This document shows positions 1,474 through 17,356 of a DNA stretch of 64,000 nucleotides, in pieces. The position numbers and the translations under genes were made by a program. The stretch is from the IMG/VR virus record IMGVR_UViG_3300020172_001416, positions 1 to 64,000 of that record; one strand, written 5' to 3'. The stretch is from a virus. The notes under the pieces are model-generated. The model was not told the DNA's origin and ran no database searches. It saw nothing but the letters and a program-made list of their open reading frames with translations. The first letter of the stretch is position 1, and each line of letters opens with the position of its first letter.

Positions 1474-1487
1474 ATCCGAAAGCAGTG

Positions 1488-1531
1488 TTTTTGGTATACA
1501 CAATACTATTTATAGTTGTGTATACCAAAAA
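1488..1531 (+). repeat. perfect 16-bp inverted repeat ahead of HNH gene, CTATTTATA in loop
   Basis: Left arm 1488-1503 and right arm 1516-1531 are exact reverse complements. The 12-base loop contains CTATTTATA (1506-1514), the motif seen upstream of structural operons. The arm carries GGTATACACAA, identical over 11 bases to the D-arm region of the downstream tRNA-Leu (2142-2152). It ends just before the HNH ribosome-binding site. It may act as terminator, promoter and antisense element. Confidence 0.8.
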
Positions 1532-1541
1532 GGAGAACGAT

Positions 1542-2165
1542 ATGTTGTGTGATTATGGATGTGGTAAAGAAGCAACGTCGCAATTAAAAAATAAAAAGTG
1601 GTGTTGCGAAGTAAGTGCAAACAAATGTCCAATAAACAAAAAGAAAAACTCAACTGCTTTACGAGAAGCTGTAAAATCTGGTAAAATAAATCATTCCGAG
1701 AGATATAAAAATTTATCAGATGAAGTAAAAGCAAAAATGAATTGGAACAAAGGTAATTATTCAAATACTAAGTTTGAGTATGGTGGTACTGGAAGCCATA
1801 AAGAAGTACTAATCTCTGAACGTGGTCATAAATGCGAATCTTGTAATAAAAAAACTTGGTTAGGAGAAAAAATTACTTTAGAATTAGAACATAAAGATGG
1901 AGATAGAAAAAATAATACTAGGGAAAATCTTCAATTATTATGTCCTAATTGCCATTCAATGACCAAAACGTGGAGAGGAAGAAACGTAAACTCTGGAAAA
2001 ATAAAAGTTGACGACCAAACCCTCTTGACAGCACTACAAACTGAAGTTAGTATTAGAGTAGCACTGAATAAAGTAGGATTGACTCCAAAAGGAGGAAACT
2101 ACCAAAGATGTTATAAGTTGTTAAGCTCCTGTGGTGGAATCGGTATACACAACAGACTTAGATAA
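1542..2165 (+). CDS. HNH endonuclease, free-standing homing type
   Basis: 207 residues. Start 1542 is chosen for AGGAGA seven bases upstream; an in-frame ATG at 1485 lies inside the inverted repeat. N-terminal cysteines (CDYGCG, then CC and C near residues 20-30) suggest a small zinc module. The HNH core follows: CESC, then ELEHKDGDRKNN and LLCPNCHS, giving the paired CxxC and catalytic His. A helix-turn-helix-like tail (TLLTALQTEVSIRVALNKVGL) could contact DNA. The last 13 codons are encoded by the 5' exon and first intron bases of tRNA-Leu, and the stop is inside the intron. Such proteins usually drive mobility of themselves or a nearby intron. Confidence 0.9.
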   Translation: MLCDYGCGKEATSQLKNKKWCCEVSANKCPINKKKNSTALREAVKSGKINHSERYKNLSDEVKAKMNWNKGNYSNTKFEYGGTGSHKEVLISERGHKCESCNKKTWLGEKITLELEHKDGDRKNNTRENLQLLCPNCHSMTKTWRGRNVNSGKIKVDDQTLLTALQTEVSIRVALNKVGLTPKGGNYQRCYKLLSSCGGIGIHNRLR

Positions 2166-2404
2166 TTGAGTGCTCTATCGGAAACGGTAGAAGTAGAATG
2201 TGTCAAATTCGGGGAAAGCTTAACTGCCAATCCCGAGCCAAGCCCCAACGGGGAAGGTGTAGAGACTAGACGGCACACACCTAAAGTAGAAATACTATGG
2301 TGAAGGGATAGTCCAGACCACAAACGGTAACGGTAGCGAAAGCTATAGTGGTAAGAAAATCTGTCACCTGAACAGGTTTGCGAGTTCGAGTCTCGCCGGG
2401 AGCA
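2125..2404 (+). tRNA. tRNA-Leu(TAA) interrupted by a group I intron
   Basis: The 5' exon (2125-2159) has acceptor GCTCCTG, D arm GTG/CAC and anticodon strand ACAGA, ending CTT. The 3' exon (2356-2404) begins AAAATCTGT and carries variable arm CCTG/CAGG, T stem GCGAG/CTCGC, acceptor CGGGAGC and discriminator A. Joined, they form a perfect anticodon stem ACAGA/TCTGT and loop CTTAAAA with anticodon TAA. The intron lies after U34, exactly the site used in cyanobacterial and plastid trnL(UAA). Mature tRNA length is 84 nt. Confidence 0.93.
2160..2355 (+). ncRNA. group I intron in tRNA-Leu(UAA), 196 nt, no internal ORF
   Basis: The 5' exon end ACTT pairs with GAGT (2168-2171) to form P1 with the U.G pair at the splice site. 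A P2-like hairpin CTATCG/CGGTAG with GAAA loop follows. The core elements are P (AAATTCGGGGAAA, 2205-2217), Q (CAATCCCGAGCCAAGCC, 2228-2244), R (GTGTAGAGACTAGACGG, about 2257-2273) and S (AAGGGATAGTCCAGACC, 2303-2319). A GAAA-capped P9-type hairpin follows, and the intron ends in G2355. This matches the small trnL intron layout. The neighbouring HNH gene lies outside the intron. Confidence 0.93.
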
Positions 2405-2427
2405 TGGTTATATAGGAGAGAGTTCCA

Positions 2428-2523
2428 ATGTGTCCTACGCATCATCAGTATATGCATAGTAAATACAAAGGGCTTATTCTAGAAACTGTTGAAGAGTATA
2501 TTAGAAGTAAATTTGGGCGGTGA
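2428..2523 (+). CDS. small ORF between tRNA-Leu and tRNA-Ala
   Basis: 31 residues beginning MCPTHHQYMHSK, with AGGAGAG eight to fourteen bases upstream. It fills the gap between two tRNAs, and its stop lies eight bases inside tRNA-Ala. There is no recognisable motif beyond Cys and His residues near the start. Coding status rests on the ribosome-binding site and exact fit to the gap. Confidence 0.42.
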   Translation: MCPTHHQYMHSKYKGLILETVEEYIRSKFGR

Positions 2524-2585
2524 GATGTAATGGGTGCATGATTCCTTTGCACGGAATTCGAGGGGTTCGATTCCCACACTGTCCA
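2515..2585 (+). tRNA. tRNA-Ala(TGC)
   Basis: Acceptor GGGCGGT/ACTGTCC contains the G3.U70 wobble that identifies alanine tRNAs. Anticodon stem ATTCC/GGAAT with loop TTTGCAC gives anticodon TGC. The T loop is TTCGATT, but the T stem has two mismatches, and the D stem is only three pairs. It is probably functional but diverged. It overlaps the end of the 31-residue ORF. Confidence 0.75.
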
Positions 2586-2589
2586 CTTA

Positions 2590-2697
2590 GTCGGTCACTG
2601 AGGGTGTCACACAAAATTCCAAAATCTACGCCGCGAAACGGGAAACCGAGTTGGTGGAATATGAAATGTAGATTGTGACAAGCGACCTGAGCCGACA
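2590..2697 (+). ncRNA. strongly structured RNA element of unknown class
   Basis: Nested complementary segments run across the interval: GTCGG (about 2590) with CCGAC (about 2692), AGG with CCT, TGTCACA (about 2606) with TGTGACA (about 2675), and ATCTAC (about 2625) with GTAGAT (about 2669). An ATTCC/GGAAT pair inside could form an alternative helix. The apical region carries GCGAAACGGGAAACC. It lies between tRNA-Ala and the tRNA-Lys promoter. I tested hammerhead and tRNA models by eye and neither fits. Confidence 0.55.
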
Positions 2698-2703
2698 CTC
2701 CAC

Positions 2704-2732
2704 TTGACAAACATCCCATAATGTAGTATACT
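2704..2732 (+). promoter_or_regulatory. sigma70-like promoter for tRNA-Lys/tRNA-Ile
   Basis: TTGACA 2704-2709, 17-nt spacer, TATACT 2727-2732, ten bases before the tRNA-Lys gene. Confidence 0.72.
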
Positions 2733-2742
2733 TAAGAAGTAC

Positions 2743-2815
2743 GCACCCCTAGCTCAATTGGCAGAGCACTCGGCTTTTAACCGATAGGTTGTGGGATCGT
2801 TGCCCACGGGGTGCA
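2743..2815 (+). tRNA. tRNA-Lys(TTT)
   Basis: Acceptor GCACCCC/GGGGTGC, anticodon loop CTTTTAA (anticodon TTT), discriminator A2815. The T loop reads ATCGTTG instead of the usual TTCRANN form, which is unusual, but the T stem GTGGG/CCCAC is perfect. Confidence 0.88.
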
Positions 2816-2827
2816 TCGCAGTATAAC

Positions 2828-2901
2828 CCGCGAGTAGCTAAATGGTGAAGGCAGCCGCCTTATATGCGGAAGATATGGGGGTTCAAGTCCCTCCTCGCGG
2901 A
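2828..2901 (+). tRNA. tRNA-Ile(TAT)
   Basis: Acceptor CCGCGAG/CTCGCGG, anticodon stem GCCGC/GCGGA (outer pair open) with loop CTTATAT (anticodon TAT), T loop TTCAAGT, discriminator A2901. It reads the rare AUA codon directly without lysidine. Such a tRNA is a common phage supplement when the phage uses AUA more than its host. Confidence 0.82.
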
Positions 2902-2924
2902 CTCTCCAATTTTACTGTAAATTT

Positions 2925-3482
2925 ATGTCAAACAAAAATCAGTTATTTGTGATGCGTGATGAATTATATTCTAGGGGACTAGAAGATTTAATTCGTTACG
3001 TTAATTCATTTGCCAATACAAAAGAAATGGATATGGTAGAGATAGGTTCTTATGCGGGAGAATCTACGGTAATCTTTGCTAAACATTTTAGACGAGTAAT
3101 TGCAATTGACCCGTATTTAAATGACTACGATGTAAACGACATCACATGCCAGTTTATGGATTTAGCGGACGTATACTCTGTGTTTGTCAAGAATATCACG
3201 CCATACAACAATATAGAACTCATAAAGAAACTATCAGACTTTGCGATTCGAGATTTGATTACGCAAAAGTTTGATTTTATTTATATAGACGGATTACATA
3301 CGTATGACCAGATTAAAAAAGATATAAAAAATTACTACCCTTTGATAAAGTCTGGTGGGTTTATAGCGGGACACGATTACCATCCGGTATATCAAGGGGT
3401 GATGGACGGCATAATAGAAACTATAGGATATCCAGACCAAACGTTTGTGGATACTAGTTGGATTAAGAGGGTTACACTATGA
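2925..3482 (+). CDS. class I SAM-dependent methyltransferase (Methyltransf_24-like)
   Basis: 185 residues. Motif I is VEIGSYAGEST (about residues 38-48), followed by an acidic strand-2 end (IAIDPY) and a motif III-type FDFIYIDGLHTYDQIKKD then GGFIAGHDY. This is the pattern of the Methyltransf_24 family, which methylates sugars or small molecules. The start ATG at 2925 has only a weak ribosome-binding site. It overlaps the following glycosyltransferase by four bases, so both probably modify the same glycan, on the virion, the host surface or DNA. The substrate cannot be read from sequence. Confidence 0.8.
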   Translation: MSNKNQLFVMRDELYSRGLEDLIRYVNSFANTKEMDMVEIGSYAGESTVIFAKHFRRVIAIDPYLNDYDVNDITCQFMDLADVYSVFVKNITPYNNIELIKKLSDFAIRDLITQKFDFIYIDGLHTYDQIKKDIKNYYPLIKSGGFIAGHDYHPVYQGVMDGIIETIGYPDQTFVDTSWIKRVTL

Positions 3483-4513
3483 GTACATTCGCCATCGGTA
3501 CACTGACCCATGACGCAGATAATAGAGATAAATTTTTACGATTGACCATAAATACATTTATGGAACATACAGCCGTTGCTCAAGGAACTAAGTGGTATAT
3601 CTACCACAATGGTCCTAGCGGTGGTCCAAACGATGTAGTGTTCTATGAAATGAAAGAAAAATGGGGACACATTATTGATTTCGAATTACATCACACTGGA
3701 AAAAATCTTGGTGTGGGATACGGAATCAACGCTCTTAATAAGCATCTAAAAAATTATGACTACTCCTTATTTTTGGAAGGAGATTGGGTAACACTACCAA
3801 AGTCCATCAGCGGGTTTGGTACCGAATGGTTGATGGACTGTATACAGTTATTGGACGAAGATACCTCTATTGACCAGATACAACTACGCCGGTATCAGCA
3901 TGATATTGATGACCGCCAATATGGTTACGGATATTGGATACGTCGGGACAATATTAAAAAAGAAACTGAAAAGTTTTTATATTTAAACAAACGGGAGTAT
4001 GGTAATAATCCGACCGTCCGTAGAAATCAAACACACTATGATGTAGGGATTTTCCCGCTTGGTGAATTTATAGATGAAAATAATGAACCGCAAGAACTAA
4101 AAGGAAATCCACTGTGGGGACAAGCAGAAATAGCCGCGTCGGGCCTAGGTCATAGGTTGGGAACCGCCACCTTGAAATTTGGAAACTTTGTTCATTGTGA
4201 CCACTGGATATATGGTGATAATTTTGAATTGGCCATAAAAAATATTAAAGGCTGCGGGTATAAGACAGACTCGCCGACGATAAACTGTAAATATGGATTT
4301 GTGTTTCCTAGAGAAGAATTCTGTTTGGCGTGTAGAAAGTCGATGGATTTTACTGATTTAGAAGAACATAACAAATTTTTCGAAGAAAAAGTCCACAGGG
4401 TTGTCTGGGAAAACCAACCCAAGGATGTAATACGGGAAATTGTTTTAACTAACATCGATTTACCACCTGTAGATATTGATACCTACATTGGTTTGTCTTT
4501 GAAACTTCGGTAA
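3479..4513 (+). CDS. glycosyltransferase-like protein (GT-A type)
   Basis: 344 residues. The N-terminal half has the GT-A nucleotide-sugar fold pattern: an early beta strand (TFAIGTLTHD), a helix, a NLGVGYGIN segment and an acidic YSLFLEGDWV motif near residue 100 in place of a DxD. The C-terminal half is Cys- and His-rich (HCDHW, CLACRKS near 280), possibly a metal site. Overlap ATGA with the methyltransferase indicates coupling. It ends 28 bases before a terminator, closing this two-gene unit. Confidence 0.68.
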   Translation: MSTFAIGTLTHDADNRDKFLRLTINTFMEHTAVAQGTKWYIYHNGPSGGPNDVVFYEMKEKWGHIIDFELHHTGKNLGVGYGINALNKHLKNYDYSLFLEGDWVTLPKSISGFGTEWLMDCIQLLDEDTSIDQIQLRRYQHDIDDRQYGYGYWIRRDNIKKETEKFLYLNKREYGNNPTVRRNQTHYDVGIFPLGEFIDENNEPQELKGNPLWGQAEIAASGLGHRLGTATLKFGNFVHCDHWIYGDNFELAIKNIKGCGYKTDSPTINCKYGFVFPREEFCLACRKSMDFTDLEEHNKFFEEKVHRVVWENQPKDVIREIVLTNIDLPPVDIDTYIGLSLKLR

Positions 4514-4540
4514 ATAGTATATTATAATTGATTTTAATGT

Positions 4541-4579
4541 ATTCCAACGTGATATTTATGTTTACGTTGGAATATTTTT
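4541..4579 (+). terminator. intrinsic terminator after glycosyltransferase
   Basis: A perfect 10-bp stem, ATTCCAACGT (4541-4550) with ACGTTGGAAT (4564-4573), is followed by an AT-rich tract containing TTTTT. Confidence 0.82.
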
Positions 4580-4629
4580 ATTAAATAGGTTCTTTATCTA
4601 ATTGTCTACTTTACATTTGGAGACATTTT

Positions 4630-5115
4630 ATGAAGAACCATTTTTATGCCGCCTGGGGTGCTTTTTGGTTATTAACCACCCCCGCTTATGCACAAGAAAA
4701 AGAAATATTTGTTGAAAAAGTGACCAATTCTGTCGTGATTGGTCCAGTAGCAGGAAATCGTGGTCTTGAATTTGGTGTAAAAAATATCCTTGAAGAATTC
4801 TTGTTGGAAAAGGAATATAACTTAAATCCAAAATCACCAGCAAGACTTCAAGTTGAAATTATATTCTTGGATGTACTGACCACCAAGAAGAATGTCTCCG
4901 TGTTCCATTCAAACGCAGAAACGGTTGTGATACGGTTGCGTGGAACAATGGTTGTTAATGGTAAGAAGGGGAAACCCGTGGTTGTTGAGGAAAGTTCCTC
5001 GGAAATTTCTATGTCTACTTTGTTAATTGACGAAGGCGGCAAATTCAACCAAACAAGTCTCTCAAACGCCTTGAAGAAATCTTGTGAGAGCTTGATTAAC
5101 AAACTATCGGAGTAA
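4630..5115 (+). CDS. exported protein of unknown function
   Basis: 161 residues. A signal peptide (MKNHFYAAW... TTPAYAQ) has a clear AYA-Q type I cleavage site near residue 22. The mature part alternates beta strands and helices (FGVKNILEEF, ARLQVEIIFLDV, VVIRLRGTMVV), reminiscent of small periplasmic lipoprotein-like or CsgG/LpoB-type folds, but I cannot assign it. It is the first gene of the exported-protein module. The next gene starts one base after its stop codon. Confidence 0.7.
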   Translation: MKNHFYAAWGAFWLLTTPAYAQEKEIFVEKVTNSVVIGPVAGNRGLEFGVKNILEEFLLEKEYNLNPKSPARLQVEIIFLDVLTTKKNVSVFHSNAETVVIRLRGTMVVNGKKGKPVVVEESSSEISMSTLLIDEGGKFNQTSLSNALKKSCESLINKLSE

Positions 5116-5116
5116 T

Positions 5117-7162
5117 ATGAAAAACATTTTAATGGCAGTTCTTCTACTTCTGCCATTCGTCAAAGTAGAAGCGCAACCCGCACTTTGGTGGGGCGCAAAC
5201 ACCATCAGTACCAATACTAATGGTGGTCCAATTGTAAAAAATGATACGATTTCTTTGGAAGTGAAGTTGAACCCAAACTTCTCCACGATTCGTTCGGTGT
5301 TCTTTGATTTTCAACATCAGAAGGATGCCATCACATTGTTGGATGTACAACCAGGTGCAGGTATTCCGCAAGGAGCCAATTTTACCTACACCAACTACTA
5401 TTATCCAAATTGTAAGTTCAACAGAACAGCACAAAACACGACAACAAATGGTTGGAACAATTACGCAAACGCACAATACACCTGTAATCAAACTACAGTT
5501 CCGTATCATGCTATCAATCGTATTCAAGTGAATGTGTCCAGTGCCGCCAACATGGAACACGCCACATACATCAAACTCCGTTTCAGAATCACCAAGACGG
5601 ATGCGGGGTTTCCATACGATTCAGTATACATGAACTTTGCCATTGGATATGATGTGAATGGTCAAACCATGACCAATACAGAAAATGTTGGAGCCAAGGG
5701 TGTCTGGATTAATTTAGCACCAAACGCAAATAATTTGATTGTTGGTGAAGTAAAACATAGTGCAAATACTACCGCAGGATTGAAAAATTTGATGCGGTTG
5801 TCTATTACTGATACATTGGTACAACCCACAGAAGTTGCTAATGCAGCAGTGGGTGGAAACGGACAGTTTGCTTTTGCACAACAATTGCAAGTGAACTCAC
5901 CATACAAGTTCCGATTAGTATTACCAGCAGATAGTTTGGCACCCTTGAGTTTGGCAGCAACCACTATCTCTGACTTTACCGCAGCACAACAAGAATGGAT
6001 TACCCAAAATCTTGACCGTACATTTAAGAACAACAACATCAACAAGGGTATGAAGTATTGGGCAGCAGATGTCAATAATGATGGTGTATTTGATGGTGGG
6101 GATGTTCAAGTGTTATTCAACGCCGTAACTGGATTGGATACCATTATGGCACCACCAGCAGGATGTGCAGCAAACTGTAGTATCAGTATTCCATTGTTCC
6201 ACGGAGCAGATTACGACAACACACCATTGACCAACTGGAATGATTTGATGACAGGCAAGACCATTGATATCATTCCAGGTCAAACAGAATATGCCATCAT
6301 CAATCTCAATGGATATGGTGCAGGTCAAACCAGATTCTATGTGGACATGCGTGAGTTCCCAGCAGGTGTCACACCTTCATCTGTGAAGTGGATGAATATT
6401 CTTGATGTGTATAACGGACCTGTCACCTTTATGTCAAGTGATGCAAGTTGGGCATTCTATAAGATTGCGTCAAGTTTCACCAAAGCAACAAATGGCACAT
6501 CAGCATTCAATAATAATATTAGAAATGTCAATAATCAAAATGTAGATTACGCACTTCGCATCAATGCAAAGTTCAGTAATAAAACATCAGGATACGTTCA
6601 CGCACGAACCACTACAAGTGAACAAACCCTTGACCTTCGTTACGCATTGAAGGGTGATGTGAACCTATCACATTCTTCATTGGTCACAGAACAACAAGCA
6701 GCGATTTACGGTTGGGGTAATTTGGTGGTTCCAAGTGGTCAAAGTATTGATACAAAGGTCAACAACGTAGTAGTTACAGGTGATACTATTAACATTCCTT
6801 TCAATGTAGATACAAAGGGTATCGTATTATCTGGTTTACAATATGAAGTCAAGTATGACCCAACATTGGTGAAGTTTGTGAAAATGAATATTAATACTCC
6901 AAGTTGGGTATCGTTCGTTCATCCAATGGTGGACGGAACTGTTCGTTTTGGTGCAGTTGATAAAGATTTAAAGAACCCATTAACAGGAGCAAATCTCACC
7001 CCATTCAAGTTACAACTCGTAGCATTGAAGGCTGGTGTAGACCTAAACACCTCTGTGGTTTTGACACAGGTTATGGACGCAGCAGACAATAAAGGTAATC
7101 AGGTTGGTATTAACCTTTCCTCTACTGTAATCCGTTTGGTCGGTATCAGTAACTTTCGATAA
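5117..7162 (+). CDS. large secreted protein with dockerin-like and cohesin-like segments
   Basis: 681 residues. The signal peptide (MKNILMAVLLLLPFVKVEAQ) cleaves near residue 19. The mature protein is Asn/Thr-rich and beta-strand rich. A calcium-loop repeat AADVNNDGVFDGGDVQVLF (about 314-332) matches the dockerin/EF-hand pattern. The last 130 residues (about 550-675: GDTINIPFNVDTKGIVLSG, QYEVKYDPTLVKFV) resemble a cohesin-type beta sandwich. Calcium-dependent assembly or display outside the cell is the likely role. The next gene encodes a lipoprotein with a related adhesive tail domain. No enzyme motif is seen. Confidence 0.7.
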   Translation: MKNILMAVLLLLPFVKVEAQPALWWGANTISTNTNGGPIVKNDTISLEVKLNPNFSTIRSVFFDFQHQKDAITLLDVQPGAGIPQGANFTYTNYYYPNCKFNRTAQNTTTNGWNNYANAQYTCNQTTVPYHAINRIQVNVSSAANMEHATYIKLRFRITKTDAGFPYDSVYMNFAIGYDVNGQTMTNTENVGAKGVWINLAPNANNLIVGEVKHSANTTAGLKNLMRLSITDTLVQPTEVANAAVGGNGQFAFAQQLQVNSPYKFRLVLPADSLAPLSLAATTISDFTAAQQEWITQNLDRTFKNNNINKGMKYWAADVNNDGVFDGGDVQVLFNAVTGLDTIMAPPAGCAANCSISIPLFHGADYDNTPLTNWNDLMTGKTIDIIPGQTEYAIINLNGYGAGQTRFYVDMREFPAGVTPSSVKWMNILDVYNGPVTFMSSDASWAFYKIASSFTKATNGTSAFNNNIRNVNNQNVDYALRINAKFSNKTSGYVHARTTTSEQTLDLRYALKGDVNLSHSSLVTEQQAAIYGWGNLVVPSGQSIDTKVNNVVVTGDTINIPFNVDTKGIVLSGLQYEVKYDPTLVKFVKMNINTPSWVSFVHPMVDGTVRFGAVDKDLKNPLTGANLTPFKLQLVALKAGVDLNTSVVLTQVMDAADNKGNQVGINLSSTVIRLVGISNFR

Positions 7163-7170
7163 GGAGCAAT

Positions 7171-7548
7171 ATGAAAAACTATTTACGATACGGGATAATT
7201 TCCCTTTTGGTAATTGGTTGCTACGACAATAATATTTTTAATCCAGATATGAGTAAACCACTTGATTTGGGAGTGACATCAACCTCCACTAAGTTTAGAA
7301 CACAAAAAGTTACGACTACGAATGGTCACGCATCGGTATTAGTTGAAGTCACACCAGGTGCGTTGTATAGTCTACAACTTACCAGTATTGATGGTAGGGT
7401 ATTAGCAATTGAAGGATTTACTGCAGATAAAGTAAATCAAGTAATTGACCTTGATTACACCAAGATTAAAAATGGTTCTTATGACTTAAACCTACTGGAT
7501 GTCTCTGGCAACGTTGTCAAGATTCCAGTAATCATCAACAAACAATAG
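7171..7548 (+). CDS. lipoprotein with a type IX secretion (Por) tail-like beta domain
   Basis: 125 residues. The signal peptide ends in the lipobox LVIGC (Cys near residue 17), so the protein is probably lipid-anchored. The C-terminal 70 residues (YSLQLTSIDGRVLA, then IKNGSYDLNLLDVSGN and a final KIPVIINK) follow the pattern of Por secretion system sorting domains: DGRVL, then GxYxL, then a terminal basic strand. In Bacteroidota that domain targets proteins to the type IX secretion system. A lipoprotein carrying one is odd, and the resemblance is by eye only. Confidence 0.62.
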   Translation: MKNYLRYGIISLLVIGCYDNNIFNPDMSKPLDLGVTSTSTKFRTQKVTTTNGHASVLVEVTPGALYSLQLTSIDGRVLAIEGFTADKVNQVIDLDYTKIKNGSYDLNLLDVSGNVVKIPVIINKQ

Positions 7549-7557
7549 GAGAACGTT

Positions 7558-7827
7558 ATGTCAGAAGAAAGTTCAGGCGGTGGATTAAAGAACGCAATCA
7601 TTGGTTTAGTAACCATTATTGTGACCGCAATCGCAGGTGTAGTTGGTAAGCAATTAATGGGTGGCGATGAAGCAGCAACAACCCCACCACCGGCAGCTGC
7701 ACCAGTAGTTATCAACCTTGAAAATAACAACACAGTCAAGGGTGGTTCAGGCGGTGGTGCAGCAGCACCGGCGGCAAAGCCAGCACCAAAGAAGGACGAT
7801 TGGACAAAAGCAGAACCAAAGTGGTAA
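7558..7827 (+). CDS. small membrane protein with Ala/Pro-rich tail
   Basis: 89 residues with good ribosome-binding site AGGAGAACGTT. One hydrophobic helix (about 11-32: AIIGLVTIIVTAIAGVVGKQ) is followed by a flexible Pro/Ala/Gly-rich region and a charged C-terminus with two Trp. Together with the next two genes it makes a run of three small membrane proteins just before the CsgG-like gene. A holin-accessory or spanin-type role is possible but not shown. Confidence 0.6.
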   Translation: MSEESSGGGLKNAIIGLVTIIVTAIAGVVGKQLMGGDEAATTPPPAAAPVVINLENNNTVKGGSGGGAAAPAAKPAPKKDDWTKAEPKW

Positions 7828-7833
7828 TAAATT

Positions 7834-8235
7834 ATGTCTAGATACGAAGAAGAAGTTACAGAACCAACTGAATCATCGGTTTTAGATGATACCCCAATTG
7901 AGGAAACACCAATGACTACAATAGAAAAGCCAGCATCACAAGAAAGTAAGTTCCAAGAAATGTTGTTCAAGATGATGGCCCGTCGTTGGAACATCACCGC
8001 AATTGTTCTTATCACCTTTATGTTAATCGTCGGTGGTATCACCATGGCAGTATACAATCAAACCGCAATTGACGGAGAATGGAAAGAACTTCTCCTCCTT
8101 ATGTTAGGTGCCTTTATCGGTTCCTATGGTAAAATTATCGATTACTGGTTCTCGGACACCGATAAGGACAAGATGTTAGTACAAAAGATGGATGAAGAAG
8201 ATGGTCAATCCTTCTCAAATACACTAGGAGGTTAA
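7834..8235 (+). CDS. membrane protein, holin-like candidate
   Basis: 133 residues. A Glu/Thr-rich cytoplasmic-type N-terminus (about 45 residues) is followed by two predicted transmembrane helices (IVLITFMLIVGGITMAV, about 54-71, and LLLLMLGAFIGSYGKIIDYW, about 86-105) and a charged tail. The hairpin topology with polar ends fits holins. The next gene has a similar two-helix layout. The sequence alone does not prove the function. Confidence 0.5.
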   Translation: MSRYEEEVTEPTESSVLDDTPIEETPMTTIEKPASQESKFQEMLFKMMARRWNITAIVLITFMLIVGGITMAVYNQTAIDGEWKELLLLMLGAFIGSYGKIIDYWFSDTDKDKMLVQKMDEEDGQSFSNTLGG

Positions 8236-16537: not shown

Positions 16538-16984
16538 ATGGAGAAACCAACGAAATACGTAAAAGCAACGTTGACAAATAGTTGTGTCCCTGCGTGTCTC
16601 GCTATGGTCACAGGCAAAACTCTCCAACGAGTCATCAAAGAAATATACGAACATTGGGAAAATGAAGGTCGATATCAAGGCGTAGAAGATGGTATCGTTG
16701 ACCAGTACCTATCAAAAAATGGATATGCAATACAACGAATCAGTCACGAATACGAACCTAATAAGTTGTTAATTCCGAAGTGGCCCGTCAACCCATTCGC
16801 TCCAATTCACATAGTAGATGTATGGTCAAGCAATCCGCCTGGAATGCATGCAGTTGTGATGTTAAAAGACGGAACAGTATACGACCCATCTAATAGACGA
16901 ATTAAAGATATCTCAATGTATCAACGAGTGTTCGGCATAACAGGAATATGGAAGGTAACTGACAAAGTATTTGATGTAAAATAG
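16538..16984 (+). CDS. papain-like (C39-type) cysteine peptidase-like protein
   Basis: 148 residues. NSCVPACLAMVTG (about 14-26) gives a catalytic-type Cys at the start of a helix. GMHAVVMLKDGTVYDPS (about 107-123) supplies the His and Asp expected of C39/papain-fold peptidases. There is no transport domain or signal peptide. The role could be cleavage of a phage or host protein. Its stop codon shares a base with the first nucleotide of the tmRNA gene. Confidence 0.68.
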   Translation: MEKPTKYVKATLTNSCVPACLAMVTGKTLQRVIKEIYEHWENEGRYQGVEDGIVDQYLSKNGYAIQRISHEYEPNKLLIPKWPVNPFAPIHIVDVWSSNPPGMHAVVMLKDGTVYDPSNRRIKDISMYQRVFGITGIWKVTDKVFDVK

Positions 16985-17317
16985 GGCCTGACCGGTTTCG
17001 ACGGGATGTAGAGGCTTAAATCTTGTACCCAGTTTGGTAAGACTGGTAAAACAGACCGAAATTTTCAACTGGCAATCAATTAGCCCTCGCTGCGTAAGCA
17101 GCCTGACGAAGTAATCTGACCCACATAGGGTTACTATCGTTCATAGATGTGGTGTAGTGTTGGTGACGGCTGGTAACTAACATCAAACGGAACGTAGCCT
17201 AAGTCAACCTTACGTTTGTTCTTTGTCGAGAGGGGGACGAAAATATACAAAGAACTACGTACATAAAAGTTTAGGAAGAAGCAGTCTCGGACCAGGGTTC
17301 GACTCCCTGCAGGTCCA
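16984..17317 (+). ncRNA. ssrA: transfer-messenger RNA (tmRNA)
   Basis: The 5' end GGGCCTGACCGGTTTCGACG matches the conserved tmRNA start and pairs with 3' CAGGTCC, with G3.U70 alanine identity. The 3' end has T arm CAGGG-TTCGACT-CCCTG and discriminator A. A tag-reading frame ends in codons for N-Q-L-A-L-A-A then TAA (near 17076-17099), like the ALAA ending of bacterial ssrA tags; the resume codon is unclear. Pseudoknot-type helices follow. tmRNA rescues stalled ribosomes and tags nascent chains for proteolysis. No CCA is encoded. No SmpB gene is visible here, so host SmpB would be used. Confidence 0.93.
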
Positions 17318-17356
17318 CTCTAATAGTTACGAATCACAATTTTTTTGGAGTAGCCT

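Follow-up and report, generated by a model that had tools for sequence, protein, structure and literature searches.

A group I intron in a phage tRNA-Leu(UAA) gene whose 5′ exon is overlapped by an HNH endonuclease gene

The DNA analyzed here, hereafter the window, comprises 64,000 nucleotides, positions 1–64000 of the virus record IMGVR_UViG_3300020172_001416, whose total length is 98,787 bases. The window encodes a portal of the T4 type along with a baseplate wedge protein, which supports the T4-like context proposed in an initial annotation of this DNA. The portals closest to that of the window phage belong to Flavobacterium phages and to one Microcystis phage. A search with the first 24 kb of the window gave no direct DNA match to named phages; thus, a close named relative is absent. 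The features under study are collected in Table 1.

Table 1. Positions of the tRNA gene, the intron helices, the HNH gene and the L443-variable block in the window.
Feature	Position	Strand	Size, evidence or remark
HNH endonuclease gene, GGAG ahead, ATG at 1542	1542–2165	+	207 aa; PHROG 14736 (E 3e-26); reading frame
tRNA-Leu(UAA) 5′ exon, last base U34	2125–2159	+	35 nt; ARAGORN intron mode, sequence
Group I intron, ORF-less, terminal G at 2355	2160–2355	+	196 nt; Rfam RF00028, covariation
tRNA-Leu(UAA) 3′ exon, begins AAAATCTGT, then variable arm, T arm, acceptor	2356–2404	+	49 nt; ARAGORN, sequence
P1, exon 2156–2159 (ACUU) with guide 2168–2171 (GAGU)	2156–2171	+	U34-G wobble at 5′ splice site
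P2 hairpin, GAAA tetraloop	2172–2194	+	two-sided changes in 7 of 9 pairs
P3 (2199–2204/2272–2277), encloses P4, P5, P6, P6a	2199–2277	+	100% paired; 6 of 6 pairs covary
P4	2209–2214/2231–2236	+	inside P3
P7 (2264–2268/2309–2313), guanosine-site helix	2264–2313	+	100% paired; one pair AU/UA
P8	2278–2302	+	sits between P7 strands
P9 domain, GNRA-capped hairpins (UAGC-GAAA-GCUA at 2334–2345)	2317–2352	+	covariation alignment
Block missing or replaced in L443 (HNH, intron, divergent tRNA-Leu/Ala/Lys)	1477–2827	+	alignment to L443

The stretch from 2125 to 2404 is a phage tRNA-Leu(UAA) gene interrupted by a genuine group I intron. With introns allowed, ARAGORN reports a tRNA-Leu(taa) of 84 bases, interrupted between gactt and aaaat by an intron of 196 nt, and the joined exons form a good cloverleaf; without the intron option, the program misses the gene. 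The insertion point lies between U34 and A35. The Rfam model Intron_gpI (RF00028) matches positions 2150–2336 over its full length with 60.1 bits (E 9.8e-13), above the curated cut-off of 50 bits. The initial annotation, which had read this gene as a tRNA-Leu(UAA) carrying a 196-nt group I intron after U34, was therefore exact in coordinates and length and correct in the class of the insert. Its further statement that the insert has a P1 and a terminal G is borne out as well, in that the fold from P1 to P9 covaries among relatives and a G stands at 2355.

Covariation was tested for P1, P2, P3, P4, P5, P6/P6a, P7, P8 and P9 on 40 diverse phage and cellular relatives. Paired cells amount to 95.9%, compared with 77.9% in column-shuffled alignments and at most 41% with slid partners, a control that is somewhat biased in favour of the fold, since the latter was drawn from the window sequence itself. 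Two-sided changes number 443, whereas shuffling the columns leaves 127 and sliding the partners leaves 76 at most; the 443 changes fall on 37 of the 59 base pairs of the fold. The covariation score is 0.498 versus 0.159 for shuffled columns. All 40 relatives retain the U34-G wobble in P1; P3 and P7 form a pseudoknotted core; every core helix is paired in the window intron; and each of the 92 distinct viral tRNA-Leu introns among the matches listed ends in G. P5 consists of 2 bp and a 6-nt loop, and P5abc is absent; introns of group IC3 lack P5a–d (PMC11835236). Other features of IC3 tRNA introns, namely insertion in the anticodon loop and compact size, accompany this missing P5 extension. The window intron is small, ORF-less and IC3-like, and is predicted to act as a group I ribozyme.

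An HNH gene that extends over the 5′ exon escaped the initial annotation. Its frame spans this exon entirely, and its stop codon, TAA, is formed by nucleotides 4–6 of the intron. The protein has an HNH motif and a family match in PHROG, while the Pfam HNH model gives 19.7–20 bits, under its cut-off of 21.4 bits; no convincing relative was found in the PDB. That a protein-coding frame reads through the exon could suggest a dead gene, in which splicing has been lost and only the decaying remains of a tRNA are left. We find this hardly credible, given the good cloverleaf of the joined exons, an intact core with all helices paired, the conservation of P1 and the terminal G, and the fact that TTA is the commonest leucine codon (33%) in long frames.

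The overlap recurs in other phages. An independent 159-kb phage contig, L358, has a 55% identical HNH protein in the same location, with the stop codon within the D-arm of the exon, and HNH–exon overlaps are also present in L150, L189, L195, L219 and L221. The same HNH family is found at other loci inside the intron (in introns of 691–756 nt), just upstream or just downstream; one class of the upstream genes has its stop codon within exon 1. The window HNH protein and the intron-encoded one of L068 have the catalytic part in common (41% over 76 aa), and both carry a GGNY-type motif, which sits at the C-terminus of one protein and at the N-terminus of its counterpart.

Introns of this kind are frequent in phages. 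Scans that combined a Q/R-region pattern with an AAAATC pattern for the 3′ exon, followed by refinement of the splice sites, found tRNA-Leu(UAA) introns after U34 in at least 116 viral records, representing at least 92 distinct introns, and, with the same pattern, in at least 100 bacterial genomes. At several loci, isotypes given by ARAGORN, such as Tyr(ata) or Ser(aga), resulted from misplaced splice sites, and the corrected reading is Leu(UAA). The cellular carriers listed belong to the Pseudomonadota, Bacteroidota, Cyanobacteriota, Acidobacteriota, Planctomycetota, Chloroflexota, Bacillota and others. Many of the viral carriers are large (L209, 379 kb; L196, 301 kb; L191, 257 kb), and those from GenBank include the 735-kb LR756501 and the 595-kb LR756511. 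The isolated Agrobacterium phage Atu_ph07 also carries a tRNA-Leu(UAA) intron, of 278 nt, in a gene that lacks a tRNA annotation in its record. Because tRNA searches that do not allow introns miss such genes, phage tRNA inventories are probably incomplete.

A review of 2014 stated that all phage introns known to that date lay in protein genes, despite the many phage tRNA genes (PMC3984707). Our search of the open-access literature found no later report of group I introns in phage tRNAs. The Gordonia phage Daredevil (L004) has, at about 2900–3200, an unannotated 238-nt group I intron in a tRNA-Lys(UUU) gene near an integrase gene, and phage tRNAs of other isotypes (Lys CUU, Arg UCU, Asn and Gln) seem to bear group I introns too.

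How closely is the HNH gene tied to the intron? Of the 92 listed distinct phage introns, 40 contain an open reading frame of the HNH family or have one no more than 1 kb away; for distinct intronless phage tRNA-Leu(UAA) loci, the figure is 2 of 105 (Fisher p ~1e-13, odds ratio ~40). Since the HNH queries were derived from the intron-bearing set, a control was run with the plain HNH motif, which gave 28 of 92 listed introns versus 2 of 105 (p 8e-9, odds ratio 23); the phages share kinship, so the p values of both comparisons overstate independence. When introns with internal frames are excluded, the motif remains at 21 of 84 listed phage loci; it is found near 3 of 100 listed cellular introns. 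In a distance scan, 34 HNH frames lay inside the introns or no farther than 1 kb from them, whereas the flanks between 1 and 5 kb, about 415 kb in total, contained 3. The linkage could stem from common ancestry among the phages. More than half of the listed phage introns have no HNH of the window family nearby; thus, the pairing of intron and HNH gene is not obligatory.

A phage with an empty site was found by using the neighbouring protein encoded at 3479–4510 as bait. This 70.7-kb contig, L443, is 95% identical to the window over positions 1–681 and 92% over 2828–8000. Its tRNA-Leu(UAA) gene is intact and free of an intron, and the HNH gene is missing. The tRNA-Leu exons of the two phages agree at 73 of 89 aligned positions, a divergence greater than that of the flanks, which is what exon co-conversion would give. 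A second comparison involves a cyanophage-like contig, L042, with an intron and a downstream HNH gene; in the isolated Synechococcus phage S-SRM01, the tRNA-Leu is intronless and the HNH gene is absent at the corresponding place. Endonuclease gene and intron are therefore jointly absent at the homologous loci of both comparisons. Intronless tRNA-Leu(UAA) genes are also present in G011 and G017, which are related more distantly. Most of the portal-based relatives (G001–G019), to which these two belong, need not extend to the tRNA region, so that the missing intron in this set is mostly uninformative.

These data can be read in another way, in which the intron is passive though competent for splicing, the HNH protein is an ordinary free-standing homing endonuclease that became established in the tRNA cluster and has some other target, and general recombination alone moves both. 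The many HNH-free phage introns would fit such a reading, as would T4 SegB, which illustrates that free-standing endonucleases occur in tRNA clusters (PMC2988022). The block exchanged with L443 exceeds the HNH gene and the intron; it includes tRNA-Ala and tRNA-Lys, so the difference from L443 could have arisen by general recombination within the tRNA cluster. We nevertheless regard such independence as unlikely. It would have to accommodate the enrichment of HNH genes at intron-bearing over intronless tRNA-Leu genes, which persists in the motif control, the intron-internal position of the same HNH family in other phages, and the joint absence of both elements at the two empty sites. Judging by these arrangements, the mobility partner of the intron is most likely the exon-overlapping HNH gene.

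We consider it probable that the IC3-like ribozyme and the exon-overlapping HNH gene make up a collaborative homing unit aimed at the anticodon of phage tRNA-Leu(UAA) genes. Exogenous G would attack after U34 of the pre-tRNA, the exons would join U34 to A35, and the intron would be released with its terminal G. In mixed infections of phages, the HNH protein would cut or nick tRNA-Leu genes that lack the intron, either in the anticodon arm or close to it, and their repair with the donor as template would copy the HNH gene, the 5′ exon and the intron together. Splicing in vivo, cleavage of the intronless tRNA gene by the HNH protein and co-homing are inferred steps.

Collaborative, or trans, homing has a precedent in T4-like phages, where mobE adjoins the group I intron of nrdB and has been proposed as its mobiliser (PMC2988022). 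The window resembles this pair in having a free-standing HNH gene beside a group I intron, and differs from it in its presumed target, the anticodon arm of a tRNA, and in an HNH frame that enters the tRNA exon and the intron. T4 SegB, a GIY-YIG enzyme encoded in a tRNA cluster, cuts intergenic DNA between tRNA genes and is intron-free (PMC2988022, PMC13096335); in both cases, phage tRNA genes have a homing endonuclease gene in their midst, but that of the window is of the HNH type and is accompanied by an intron. The phage group I introns of td, nrdB, nrdD, DNA polymerase and terminase genes have HNH or GIY-YIG partners, as in the window, yet they interrupt protein genes, whereas the window intron interrupts a tRNA gene. 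As judged from the open-access literature, what appears new here is the phage tRNA setting together with the exon-overlapping HNH partner, the intron type itself being already known.

Introns of group IC3 were reportedly described in the trnL(UAA) genes of cyanobacteria and plastids by Xu and by Kuhsel in 1990. The trnL(UAA) intron is a textbook “ancient” intron, and it is widely used as a marker in plants and cyanobacteria. The window intron and these introns interrupt the same tRNA at the identical site after U34, have a U-G pair in P1, a P3–P9 core and a terminal G, and fall in the same class of about 200–300 nt. The window copy differs in residing in a phage, in its sequence and clade, and in the exon-overlapping HNH gene. 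Among the matches listed, its identity reaches 84% with other phage introns, 78% with tRNA-Leu introns of Bacteroidales and alphaproteobacteria, and no more than 66% with cyanobacterial trnL introns; these values do not support cyanobacterial descent. Furthermore, the cyanobacterial trnL introns form a single clade that excludes the window (support 100/100), and the best five matches to the window intron in 194 cyanobacterial genomes are all tRNA-fMet introns, with no trnL intron among them. The initial annotation was thus right about the canonical trnL(UAA) position, but the tie to the cyanobacterial and plastid lineage that it implied is weak.

In the trees, the window intron grouped with eight Bacteroidales copies in three subset analyses (93–98 bootstrap, 95–97 SH-aLRT), and this set was unsupported in a quick tree of 193 rows. 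Two of the Bacteroidales copies adjoin rodA or mrdA and are, therefore, chromosomal. The trees rest on 208 columns, which offer little resolution, and cover viral and bacterial copies, cyanobacterial ones included. AU tests of three arrangements (the window with cyanobacteria, all viruses as one clade, and a core virus clade without Bacteroidales) were non-significant, with p of 0.14–0.30, so that no firm direction of transfer is claimed. An inheritance from the cyanobacterial or plastid trnL(UAA) lineage, for example through pickup of a tRNA by a cyanobacterial phage, would account for the shared insertion site and U34-G logic of P1, for the Microcystis phage among the closest portals, and for the AU test that joined the window with cyanobacterial copies without rejection (p ~0.2). 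In view of the identities, the separate clade and the fMet matches, it appears very improbable to us: descent from cyanobacteria lacks support, even if the tree tests give no formal exclusion.

The compact IC3-type core is also found in the tRNA introns of Azoarcus and other proteobacteria, and in the tRNA-Leu and tRNA-fMet introns of alphaproteobacteria and Bacteroidota. The window is closer to the alphaproteobacterial and Bacteroidota introns (among the matches listed, 78% for Leu and about 75% over part of the length for fMet). The proteobacterial and Bacteroidota introns differ from it in being chromosomal and in rarely having an HNH gene near them. In a sample of Bacteroidota, 23 of 395 genomes match the window intron somewhere, and the genomes L578–L587 have group I introns of 266–311 nt in tRNA-fMet. 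In one Bacteroidia genome (L347, 2377–4122), an integrase gene lies directly downstream of the intron-bearing tRNA-Leu, which suggests an integrative element at that gene.

The initial annotation had left the phage copy as either a vector for the spread of the intron or an independent acquisition. This alternative is still unsettled, but it has become sharper: phage tRNA-Leu introns look mobile, are common at the trnL site, have HNH genes linked to them in three positions and matched empty sites, and have relatives in Bacteroidales. We raise, tentatively and with some doubt, the possibility that phages act as one of the chief reservoirs and carriers of tRNA-Leu(UAA) introns. HNH endonucleases directed at the anticodon arm would drive the intron from phage to phage and occasionally into bacterial chromosomes, such as those of the Bacteroidales whose copies group with the window phage intron. 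Repeated invasion of this one site might then explain the scattered occurrence of these introns, possibly including the “ancient” cyanobacterial one, beyond what vertical descent alone would explain. An intron whose presence in cyanobacteria and chloroplasts is usually put down to ancient inheritance may, accordingly, be spread by phages, and the choice between vertical descent and mobile invasion at the trnL(UAA) site becomes directly testable.

Several other elements lie in or near the tRNA cluster of the window. A frame of 99 aa with CxxC pairs (706–1005), for which no family match was found, is absent between the corresponding genes of L443. The segment 1191–1476, non-coding and amid tRNA genes, is 84% conserved in L443 and ends in a terminator-like hairpin with a T-run; it has no match in Rfam or named phages, and its folding energy is unexceptional (z −1.0). 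It is a possible phage ncRNA. Positions 2516–2584 hold a tRNA-Ala(UGC)-like gene that was missed by ARAGORN and scores 28.6 bits with Rfam, just under the cut-off; at the matching position, L443 has a normal tRNA-Ala(UGC). A long imperfect hairpin at 2586–2705 (z −2.0) separates two tRNA genes, and the L443 sequence differs there. Finally, farther along the window, the phage encodes a tmRNA (16984–17320; Rfam 114.6 bits), whose tag end, as read by eye, is GNQLALAA.
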